NCBI GenBank assembly: GCA_016215705.1
Contig: JACRIR010000058.1
Coordinates: forward strand, 1-22,229
Length of the DNA: 22,229 nucleotides
Reading direction: 5' to 3'
DNA from: Candidatus Poribacteria bacterium
GTDB lineage: Bacteria > Abyssobacteria > SURF-5
Both the position numbers and the translations under genes were made by a program. The notes below the pieces were generated by a model, which was given only the letters and a program-made list of their open reading frames with translations, did not search any database and was not told the origin of the DNA. Shown here piece after piece: positions 14,373 to 18,162 of the stretch (the first letter of the stretch is position 1; every line of letters starts with the position of its first letter).

Positions 14373-15242
14373 CTATTCTCCCAGCGCAGCGTCCATAGCG
14401 GCCTTGAGCATCTTGTGGAATTCGTCGAAGCTGGTGTTTTGGTATTTCAAGATGGCTTGCGATTGCGCCGTGTCGTACCAGTCGAGCCAGCCGGGTTTTT
14501 CATGAAACGTTTGCGACTCAAACGATATGTCCAGTGTATGGCAGTAGCGGCGAGCGTATTCTTCGCCGGTCACTTGCCACGATGAGCCGCCGGCGAGGTT
14601 GAAGACTTTGCCGTGCGCTCGAGTGTTGTCGACAAGATTGACGAGCGCCGTCACCAAGTCGCCAATCGCGACAAATTCGACGCGCTGATTACGCATGAAC
14701 GGCCACGGGGCGGGCGGATCAAGAAACGCGGGCACCGCGATGCCGGCTATCCGAAGAATCGCATAGGGAATACCTGCCTCCATCACAAGTCTCTCGGACG
14801 CGATCTTGCTCTCGGGATATATGTTCAGCGCCGCCTGCGGATGATCGATTTGGATGGGTGGCATCTCGGTCGAAGTGTCTCCGTATGTGGAGACCGACGA
14901 GGAAAATATCAGCGGAATCGAGCCGGCCGATTCGCACGCATGTGTGATTGCTCGCGTGCCTTCTACGTTTATGGACATGGTCAGTGTGCGGTCCTTTTCG
15001 CTCGCGGGCGGCAGAATGGCGGCCAAATGAAACACCGTCGAGCAGCCGTTGACGGACTGTTTCACGAGTTCGCCGTCGCGGATGTCGCCCCTGACAATCT
15101 CGAAGCCTTCCGGCTCTTCAAACGGGGAGAAGTCGGCGGCCGCGATGTCCATCACGCGTACATGATGCCCTTTCTCGCGGAGGCCATATGCCACATTTGC
15201 GCCGAGCCTGCCGGCGCCGCCGGTCACCAGAATAGTTGACAT
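14373..15242 (-). CDS. NAD(P)-dependent epimerase/dehydratase (extended SDR)
   Basis: 289 residues. TGGAGRLG at residues 7-14 is the extended-SDR nucleotide-binding motif, followed by an acidic residue after strand 2 (RVMDIAAADF), DIRD at 53-56, HLAA at 72-75, Ser113-116 (FSSSVSTYG) and YPESK with catalytic Tyr142 and Lys146. The fold reduces or oxidises a sugar nucleotide or another alcohol/ketone; the substrate is unknown. The frame extends 14 codons further upstream, but AGAAGGGA lies a suitable distance before the ATG at 15242, where the fold begins (STILVTGG). It follows the MoaD-like gene by 45 bp, so it may be the downstream member of the AOR transcription unit. Confidence 0.92.
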   Translation of the reverse strand: MSTILVTGGAGRLGANVAYGLREKGHHVRVMDIAAADFSPFEEPEGFEIVRGDIRDGELVKQSVNGCSTVFHLAAILPPASEKDRTLTMSINVEGTRAITHACESAGSIPLIFSSSVSTYGDTSTEMPPIQIDHPQAALNIYPESKIASERLVMEAGIPYAILRIAGIAVPAFLDPPAPWPFMRNQRVEFVAIGDLVTALVNLVDNTRAHGKVFNLAGGSSWQVTGEEYARRYCHTLDISFESQTFHEKPGWLDWYDTAQSQAILKYQNTSFDEFHKMLKAAMDAALGE

Positions 15243-15287: not shown

Positions 15288-15935
15288 TCAACGGTGTGTT
15301 GCCCGAATGAGATTGCGCTTCACAGTGCTCTCAGGATTGTCATTCTGAGGAGCGAAGCGACGAAGAATCTCTCGTTTTCCTGCAAATTTGCGACCTGTAG
15401 ACAGAGATTCTTCGCTTCGCTCAGAATGACAAAGGGATGGCTCAAAGTGACAAAGGGATGGCTCAAAGTGACAAAGGGATGGCTCAGAGTGACAAAAGGA
15501 TGGTTCAGAGTGACAAATGGATGGCTCAGAGTGACAAAGGGCTATTACCATTTGGGCAACACGCCGTCGAAGGTCAATTGCGTCCGAGAGAACGATCTCC
15601 TTTTGACGCGAGACTCGCGACTCCCCTTTCCCTTTTGTCTTGCTCCTGTTTTCCTCGCTGCCGCCCGACACTGGAATGAGAAAATGAATCTCGGCGTTTT
15701 CGGGCAAAGGAGTCTCGATTGCCTCGATGTCGCCGTTAGGCCCTATCGCAGAAATGGGCGGCTTGAACTCATTTTTTTCGGCATCCCAGCACTGCTTCGG
15801 AAAACTTGAGCCGTAGCGGTTTCCGATCTCGGCGAGGAGGTCGCCATAACATGCGCCGTCGCGAAGCGCGAGATCAACTGAGTCCACGCCCGCATATTTC
15901 GACAGTGTGCCGATGAAATTGACTCGAATCTTCAT
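15288..15935 (-). CDS. MoaD/ThiS-like sulfur-carrier protein with repeat-encoded C-terminal extension
   Basis: 215 residues, of which the first 92 form a ubiquitin-like MoaD/ThiS domain (MKIRVNFIGTLSKYAG, ILPVSGG-type end at 86-92: IPVSGG). In this family the C-terminal Gly-Gly is adenylated and thiocarboxylated to give sulfur to molybdopterin; MoaD-like genes often sit by aldehyde:ferredoxin oxidoreductase genes, as here. The Gly-Gly codons are at 15660-15665, yet the frame stays open for another 123 residues: a basic, non-conserved piece, then five 7-residue CHSEPSx/CHFEPSx units and HSERSEES. A protein needing a free terminal Gly-Gly would have to be cleaved, or the stop was lost. The upstream frame to 16148 is repeat translation; ATG 15935 fits the domain start (weak ribosome site). 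Confidence 0.8.
   Translation of the reverse strand: MKIRVNFIGTLSKYAGVDSVDLALRDGACYGDLLAEIGNRYGSSFPKQCWDAEKNEFKPPISAIGPNGDIEAIETPLPENAEIHFLIPVSGGSEENRSKTKGKGESRVSRQKEIVLSDAIDLRRRVAQMVIALCHSEPSICHSEPSFCHSEPSLCHFEPSLCHFEPSLCHSERSEESLSTGRKFAGKREILRRFAPQNDNPESTVKRNLIRATHR
15339..15430. repeat. Inverted pair of the GATTCTTCGC element
   Basis: GTCATTCTGAGGAGCGAAGC (from 15339) and its reverse complement relative GCTTCGCTCAGAATGAC (to 15430) flank a 30-nt spacer, so the region can form a hairpin. It lies within the read-through part of the MoaD-like gene. Confidence 0.8.
15421..15541. repeat. 21-bp tandem repeat, about 6 copies
   Basis: The unit GTGACAAAGGGATGGCTCAA (+A) repeats about every 21 nt with 1-3 changes per copy. 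21 nt is seven codons, so reading frames stay open on both strands (CHSEPSx on the minus strand). It seems to have grown from the tail of the element ending at 15430. Confidence 0.9.
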
Positions 15936-16124
15936 GATGACATCGATCCCTAACCGCAAAGGCGCAAAGAAGAACAAAGGCTCTAAATCACGAATGCCAC
16001 GAATGACAGGGCGGCTACGCCGCGCTGCAGATTTCCTCTTCCCGTGGTCGGTCTTCTCTTTGCGAACTTTGTGCCTTTGCGGTGAATAAAGCCCATAACC
16101 ACCCTTGTGAATAGGGCCAATGGA

Positions 16125-16170
16125 AATCCCCCCTTCCCCCCTTTGCAAAGGGGGGGTGAGGGGGGATTTT
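16125..16170. repeat. C-run/G-run imperfect palindrome
   Basis: AATCCCCCCTTCCCCCCTTT is opposed, after GC, by an AAAGG..GGGGGGATT arm (mismatches at the TGA/TT position). Its translation gives the known junk string PPSPPLCKGG; a dispersed intergenic element. Confidence 0.8.
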
Positions 16171-16223
16171 GTCTCGAGCTAGTAGAGCGCTTCCTAAGTA
16201 ACGTTGCAATAGCCATAAAGAAC

Positions 16224-16250
16224 GAGATTCTTCGCTTCGCTCAGAATGAC
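16224..16250 (+). repeat. Dispersed GATTCTTCGC element, further copy
   Basis: GAGATTCTTCGCTTCGCTCA followed by GAATGAC, identical to the copy at 15404-15430. Confidence 0.9.
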
Positions 16251-16308
16251 GGTTATTGTTAGGCTCATCCTCAAAATGCTTATGCTATGTTATTTCGGAA
16301 ACGTCATA

Positions 16309-18162
16309 CTAGTAGAGGTCCTTTATCGCGTATTCGAGGCCGAGCTCGTGGAGCTTCTCCTTGGTCGGCATCCCTTCTTTGTTCCAGCCGCGGGCTGAGT
16401 AGTAGTCGACCAATTGCATTTCGAGGTCCGCAACTTTGCCCGCGTGGCCGCCTTCGCTTGTCGGCGTGAGCAGCCGTTCGGGAAGAACATCGTCTTTAGC
16501 GGTCACACCGCATCTCAGGCTGAACACACGCTGCAGATTCGTTATCCGCTCCGCGATGAGAGGAATTTCCTTGGTGCTGTAAGCCATTCCGGCTGTCGCA
16601 CCCAGCAGGACAACATAGTGCAGGGGCGCGAGCGCCAGCCCGCAGAACTGGCAGACGACCAGGGAGTTGATTACCGACGCCTGATCCTGCGCCGCCTTAA
16701 CGTTGATTCCTTTGCCCTTCTTGTCGAAGCGGCCCTGTTTGTAGGCCACACCGAAGCCGGGGGCGATTATGCCCATATCGTAGATGAATGCCGCGCCGTG
16801 GAGGTGACATGCGCCGCGCGGAGAGGTTGCGTAATTGACGGCCATGCTGTGGAATGCGCGCGGATCATGCATCGGGATTTCAAGGCCCTTCACATGGATC
16901 GCGTACTTATCGGTTCCCTTGCCGAGTTTCTCGGAAGCGCGCTTCACTCCTTCGCCGAGGAGCGCGCCGAGGCCCTTCGCCTGGCCGATCTGGTGCGTCA
17001 TCTCGATGATCGCGTCGACGTTGCCCCACTTCAGATCGATGCCGCCGGTATCCTGCTTGGTGATGATTCCGTTCTCGTAAGCTTCCATCGCGAACGAAAT
17101 AGCGCAGCCGGCGGAAATCGTGTCGATGCCGTATGCGTTGCAAAGCTCGTTCAGGTGGCAGATGGACTCGAGGTTATCATTCAAGAGCATCGACCCGAAA
17201 CTGCCGAGCGTTTCGTATTCCGGCCCGGGGCCTTCCATCCGGAAACGGCCCTCTTCGATTTTCACCCAGCGCGAGCAATGAATGGGACAGTTGTAGCATG
17301 CGCCGTGCGGGCGAAGTATCGTGTCCGCAATCTTCTTGCCGCCAATGGCGACGCAGCCCTCTTTCCACAGTCCCTTGCGCCAGTTCTGAATCGGAATGTC
17401 CCCGGTAATCCATGCGGTGTCCATGCTCGCGGCTGTGCCGTAAGAGCGCATCGGCTCGAGCAGCGGGTTGGTTGCGAGTTCATGCGAGAATTTCTTGGCC
17501 ATCTGATCAAGTGTTGTGGAGTCGGCGACTTTAACGCTCTTCTTTCCGCGGACGGCGATTGCCTTGAAGTTCTTCGAGCCCATCACTGCGCCGACGCCGG
17601 CGCGGCCGGCGGCCCGGCCTTCATCGTTCATCACGGCGGAGATGAGCACCTTCTTCTCGCCCGCTTGTCCGATGCACAGAACGCGGATTCTCTTGTCGCC
17701 CAGTTCCTCTCGAATGGCATCCTGCGTCGCGTAGCTGTCCTTACCCCACAGCTTCGAGGCGTCGCGCAACTCGGCCTTATCGTCCGACACCCAGAGATAC
17801 ACGGGCTTGGAGGATGCGCCCTCGACAATGACGCCGTCGAAACCCGTCTTCTTGAAATCGGCGGCCCAGTGGCCTGCCGAGCTGGCGTCTACCCACATGT
17901 TCGTCAGAGGGGATTTTGTGCAGACCTCGTAGCGACCGCTTGTCGGGAACTTTGTGGCAGTGACGGGGCCGGTGAGAAACGCGATTTTGTTTTCCGGCCC
18001 GAGCGGGTCGGCGGAGGGGGGCACTTCGTCGTAAATGATTTTCGTCCCGAGGCCTGCGCCTCCGATGAAGGCGCGGGCATCGTCCATGTTAAGGTTCTCT
18101 ATTTCGACTTTACCTTCAGTGAGCCTTACTCGGATGAGTTTTCCCATGTAACCCAACGCCAT
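16309..18162 (-). CDS. Aldehyde:ferredoxin oxidoreductase family protein (tungstopterin/[4Fe-4S])
   Basis: 617 residues, full length for the AOR family. Motifs: GGAGLGTKIIYDEVPP (34-49), the FPTSGRYEVCTKSPLTNMW segment around 72-90, SSAGHWA, and the [4Fe-4S] site CYNCPIHC (Cys289, 292, 296) with the fourth ligand probably Cys504 (NSLVVCQFCG). EYETLG (Glu315) and GACHLHG (His453) match the catalytic region. The C-terminus (RGWNKEGMPTKEKLHELGLEY) is intact. These enzymes oxidise aldehydes to acids, or reduce acids at low potential, with ferredoxin and a W or Mo bis-pterin cofactor; the substrate is not predictable. ATG 18162 is preceded by AGGAGGT 8 nt upstream. The gene overlaps the DUF362 gene by 47 bp, and a MoaD-like gene follows. 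Confidence 0.96.
   Translation of the reverse strand: MALGYMGKLIRVRLTEGKVEIENLNMDDARAFIGGAGLGTKIIYDEVPPSADPLGPENKIAFLTGPVTATKFPTSGRYEVCTKSPLTNMWVDASSAGHWAADFKKTGFDGVIVEGASSKPVYLWVSDDKAELRDASKLWGKDSYATQDAIREELGDKRIRVLCIGQAGEKKVLISAVMNDEGRAAGRAGVGAVMGSKNFKAIAVRGKKSVKVADSTTLDQMAKKFSHELATNPLLEPMRSYGTAASMDTAWITGDIPIQNWRKGLWKEGCVAIGGKKIADTILRPHGACYNCPIHCSRWVKIEEGRFRMEGPGPEYETLGSFGSMLLNDNLESICHLNELCNAYGIDTISAGCAISFAMEAYENGIITKQDTGGIDLKWGNVDAIIEMTHQIGQAKGLGALLGEGVKRASEKLGKGTDKYAIHVKGLEIPMHDPRAFHSMAVNYATSPRGACHLHGAAFIYDMGIIAPGFGVAYKQGRFDKKGKGINVKAAQDQASVINSLVVCQFCGLALAPLHYVVLLGATAGMAYSTKEIPLIAERITNLQRVFSLRCGVTAKDDVLPERLLTPTSEGGHAGKVADLEMQLVDYYSARGWNKEGMPTKEKLHELGLEYAIKDLY

Follow-up and report, generated by a model that had tools for sequence, protein, structure and literature searches.

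An AOR-linked MoaD-like gene very probably extended past its Gly-Gly by stop loss and a MITE

In the window (the whole stretch of Candidatus Poribacteria DNA that was analyzed, 22,229 nucleotides), a MoaD-like carrier linked to a gene for aldehyde ferredoxin oxidoreductase (AOR) has very probably been extended by the loss of its stop codon and by a MITE-derived tail, which together cover its Gly-Gly. The open reading frame lies on the minus strand (15935..15288, 215 amino acids) and, as the initial annotation had described, its Gly-Gly (codons at 15660-15665) is followed by 123 residues. The same annotation had recognized that the tail is partly built from 21-bp tandem repeats but overlooked their cause: the tail consists of a whole MITE together with filler DNA, and the repeats represent a module within this MITE that has been amplified.

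A MoaD-like head behind an AOR gene

The first 92 residues (15660..15935, minus strand, ending in IPVSGG) were assigned to a MoaD/SAMP-like beta-grasp head based on profiles, a 60%-identical orthologue, and a predicted fold. In the profile search the head scored 23.6 bits against TIGR01687 over the full length (below the curated cut-off of 49.5) and 19.5 bits against Pfam ThiS (below the cut-off of 22.5), and the orthologue in genome G001, from a sister genus, reached 22.6 bits against ThiS, just above the cut-off. A structure model, whose input combined the window protein with three MoaD-like homologues from AOR loci, had high confidence across most of the head, with block means of 66-93, and a pLDDT mostly <50 in the tail. 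The best Foldseek matches of the predicted head fold were Haloferax SAMP1, archaeal and bacterial MoaD, and Urm1 (E down to 6.5e-7). The resemblance of the head to MoaD/ThiS is weak by sequence and clear by predicted fold, and its gene is a probable sulfur carrier. The free C-terminal Gly-Gly of MoaD/ThiS carriers is absent as encoded, with 123 residues behind the motif, and the protein is therefore named MoaD-like and not a working MoaD.

The head gene follows the AOR gene (16309..18162, minus strand; Pfam AFOR_N and AFOR_C, 84% identical in G001), and AOR-linked MoaD is a known gene neighborhood (PMC1779556). The downstream neighbor is a NAD-dependent epimerase-like gene (14373..15242, minus strand), identified with Pfam and syntenic in G001. 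A scan of the genome contigs with the head as query found no relative, the same scan with AOR as query found seven distant AORs and nothing else, and a viral scan gave no match. Further inverted repeats were noticed by eye between the AOR and MoaD genes (15957-16090 and 16120-16175), namely a pair of "ctttgcggt" sequences and a palindrome rich in G.

Residues behind the Gly-Gly in other carriers

The earlier statement that the family normally stops at the Gly-Gly holds as a tendency only. Of the 25 ThiS-family carriers compared from outside the window's phylum, 13 end at this motif and 12 continue, seven of them with 1-8 extra residues and five with 80-144; two of the five long-tailed carriers were scanned with Pfam and represent a ThiS-NIL and a MoaD-MoaE fusion. 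Within the phylum of the window, compared across three genomes (its own, G001, and G002), 13 out of 18 carriers have at least one residue behind the Gly-Gly. Overall, carriers with residues, or even whole domains, behind this motif are not rare. A free Gly-Gly is reported to be needed by Escherichia coli MoaD and by MoaX of Mycobacterium tuberculosis, whose activity requires a cut between Gly82 and Ser83 (PMC4326299), and the MoaD-MoaE protein of Deinococcus is cut by DRJAMM (PMC8832034). Since MoaX and MoaD-MoaE are both cut at the Gly-Gly, a buried motif alone does not mean a dead protein.

Several individual tails were also recorded. Carriers from three unrelated genomes (L132, L133, and L143) share a similar domain of 80-85 residues behind the Gly-Gly, which in L132 matches NIL. 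A G002 carrier (L118, 1501-1833) continues for 24 residues past the Gly-Gly and ends in a second ...AVAGG, and a G001 carrier (L123, 1501-1701) has a 10-residue tail (GGG-ATEHSVCGII).

Origin of the tail

The tail begins with 31 codons of filler (93 nt, 15567..15659, minus strand), which have no counterpart in the G001 orthologue; some short stretches of this filler are also present at other sites of the window's genome. Within the filler lies TCGA (15567-15570), the left target-site duplication of a full MITE copy of 275 bp (15292..15566, minus strand). The 18-bp terminal inverted repeats of this MITE (15292-15309 and 15549-15566; 22-nt arms, 86% complementary) bracket the tail DNA, and its ends recur at 33 + 33 places (66) throughout the genome compared with 1 + 0 in the control. 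The right duplication TTGA (15288..15291, minus strand) matches the left one at 3 out of 4 positions. In a test of 17 distinct elements in 18 pairings, two of the elements coming from G002, the 4-bp duplication matched at 65 out of 72 positions, whereas shuffles gave a mean of 33 and none of 20000 reached 65. The copies measured in this test are 170-365 bp long and too short for a transposase. No facing ends 1-3 kb apart that might mark a parent transposon occur among the matches listed for this draft genome. Because of its inverted repeats, its 4-bp target-site duplication, and its many short copies, the 275-bp element is assigned to a dispersed MITE family.

The repeats of the tail form a single array within the MITE (15419..15541, minus strand; TRF period 21, 5.9 copies, 92% matches) that reads CHSEPSx, and several other MITE copies, for example C44, carry similar amplified modules of their own. 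The forward frame 0 of the MITE is open from end to end in 12 out of 18 sampled rows, so that a reading frame entering in this phase reads the whole element, and because 21 bp is a multiple of three the frame survives amplification of the array. The window frame terminates at a TGA (15288-15290) inside the right-hand duplication. An open tail needs no selection, since the MITE has one frame open throughout. Compared with their consensus, the array units contain four nonsynonymous and one synonymous codon changes, and protein-level selection on the tail was rejected given that these changes are mostly nonsynonymous. The GC3 of the tail is 0.44 versus 0.63 in the head. The tail alone matched no Pfam family, and a conserved domain was likewise rejected.

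A second MITE family is represented in the window by a 126-bp element (16179-16312) whose position coincides exactly with the stop codon of the AOR gene (TAC-TAG), where the CTAG duplication preserves the stop; CTAG was found on both sides in 6/6 copies seen. Both MITE families contain the 25-mer CATTCTGAGCGAAGCGAAGAATCTC (window 15404-15428 and 16224-16248), which with up to three mismatches has 219 occurrences in the genome of the window, and 7 and 5 in the two sister genera. A literature search on this 25-mer and its peptides returned no relevant paper.

Probable loss of the stop codon and integrity of the assembly

The syntenic G001 orthologue, the one AOR-adjacent orthologue available for a check of where the gene stops, ends in ISGG-Thr-Ala-stop, two residues behind the Gly-Gly and 13 nt before the next gene. 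The comparison with this one outgroup supports a putative ancestral stop after the Gly-Gly that was lost in the window gene. No orthologue of the head gene was found in G002. When the flanks are joined without the MITE, the frame runs into the epimerase gene if the TCGA copy is retained and stops 30 residues after the Gly-Gly if the TTGA copy is retained, and the state before insertion is therefore ambiguous.

The initial annotation had offered stop loss, exposure of the Gly-Gly by a protease, and an assembly or indel artifact as explanations; the G001 orthologue favors the first and the following observations disfavor the last. An artifact would take the form of a repeat misassembly or of a sequencing error that erased the stop. 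The genome is a draft of 270 contigs in which the MITE is present in multiple copies, and one wrong base, for example in the GAG or GAA just after the Gly-Gly, would suffice. However, the order DUF362-AOR-MoaD-epimerase-small protein-acyl-CoA dehydrogenase is identical in the window and in G001, and this conserved arrangement to either side of the MITE, together with the nearly matching target-site duplication, makes a chimeric join unlikely; it was rejected on these grounds. A frameshift error was rejected as well: in the other two frames the first stop past the Gly-Gly comes after about 27 and 37 codons, so a single-base indel would neither bring back an early stop nor account for the buried motif. 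An artifact of either kind is highly improbable.

Under the favored explanation, the original stop of the AOR-linked MoaD-like gene, directly behind the Gly-Gly, would have been lost, and a MITE would have inserted about 90 bp downstream of the Gly-Gly, with the two events possible in either order. The frame would then read through the filler and the MITE in its end-to-end open frame, with the CHSEPSx repeats arising from an amplified 21-bp module, and end at the TGA of the right-hand duplication. The tail is presumably translated, and the predicted product is a beta-grasp carrier whose tail is modeled with low confidence and is probably disordered. Its Gly-Gly would be neither adenylated nor thiocarboxylated without a proteolytic cut behind the motif. 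From MoaD chemistry, the uncut carrier should be inactive, carrying no thiocarboxylate as encoded, and proteolysis would be needed for activity.

Trimmed precursor or decaying gene

A check of the genome for a JAMM gene, as the initial annotation had proposed, identified one intact Prok-JAB gene (HxHx10D motif) in a MoaD-ThiF-cysteine synthase-JAMM cluster (C84) away from the locus of the extended carrier. There is an appreciable, if less than even, chance that the gene encodes a functional precursor, in which the translated tail is cut behind the Gly-Gly by this JAMM or another protease and discarded, much like a harmless leader, to leave an ordinary active carrier. The intact JAMM gene and a Gly-Gly-Ser junction like that of MoaX are consistent with such a precursor, and the many carriers of the phylum with a short tail behind the motif suggest that tail removal may be routine and the carrier fully active. 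The divergence of the head is ordinary as well (60% identity to its orthologue vs. 47-74% in other carrier pairs), but the JAMM gene lies at another locus.

The chances are slightly better than even that the gene is instead decaying: stop loss together with the MITE would have disabled it, and it would still be open because too little time has passed, with other carriers acting as substitutes. The genome contains five other ThiS-family carriers, some of them beside other AOR genes, and one MoaE, so loss of a carrier could be tolerated; the missing G002 orthologue and the mostly nonsynonymous array changes point in the same direction. Against decay, the head is intact with its Gly-Gly kept and its divergence not unusual, and the MITE copy differs from the family consensus by 4.2% in the part compared (family range 0.8-10.9%), indicating that the insertion is not brand-new. 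Overall, the evidence leans slightly more toward a dispensable carrier.

A more specific proposal appears rather unlikely: translation of the MITE tail would be tolerated because the carriers of this phylum, most of them already extended, are trimmed behind the Gly-Gly by a broad JAMM protease. If it were true, growth of the 21-bp array would represent freely variable protein sequence on a trimmed precursor. The extended carrier provides a natural case in which trimming of unrelated tails behind a Gly-Gly by a bacterial JAMM can be tested simply; beyond this it is an ordinary outcome of repeat-rich intergenic DNA. It illustrates how the reactive end of a carrier can become hidden when stop loss and a MITE act jointly, and caution is warranted with gene callers, which convert MITE copies into protein tails.

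Comparison with known systems

The formation of C-terminal extensions by MITEs is a known bacterial process of which the window reading frame is a further case. RU-1 supplies the C-terminus of the Erwinia amidase ECA3499 (PMC2759123) and QMITE2 that of enhC in Coxiella Dugway (PMC5896051), in each case replacing the stop, and the Rickettsia palindromic elements sit in frame within proteins (reviewed in PMC10969869). As in these examples, part of the window protein is encoded by a short non-autonomous repeat whose frame is open, and as with RU-1 and QMITE2 that part is the C-terminus. The window MITE differs from them in belonging to another family, in its in-frame amplified 21-bp module, and in that its tail covers the end at which the protein is expected to react.

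Among carriers, the window gene shares the neighborhood of the AOR-linked MoaD family, and the C84 cluster resembles the ThiS/MoaD-E1-JAB-cysteine synthase operon type (PMC1779556), although in the window's genome the extended carrier and the JAMM are encoded at separate loci. Like MoaX and the Deinococcus MoaD-MoaE, the window protein has its Gly-Gly buried in a longer chain, but filler and repeat DNA take the place of a conserved domain behind it, and cleavage is known for those two proteins.
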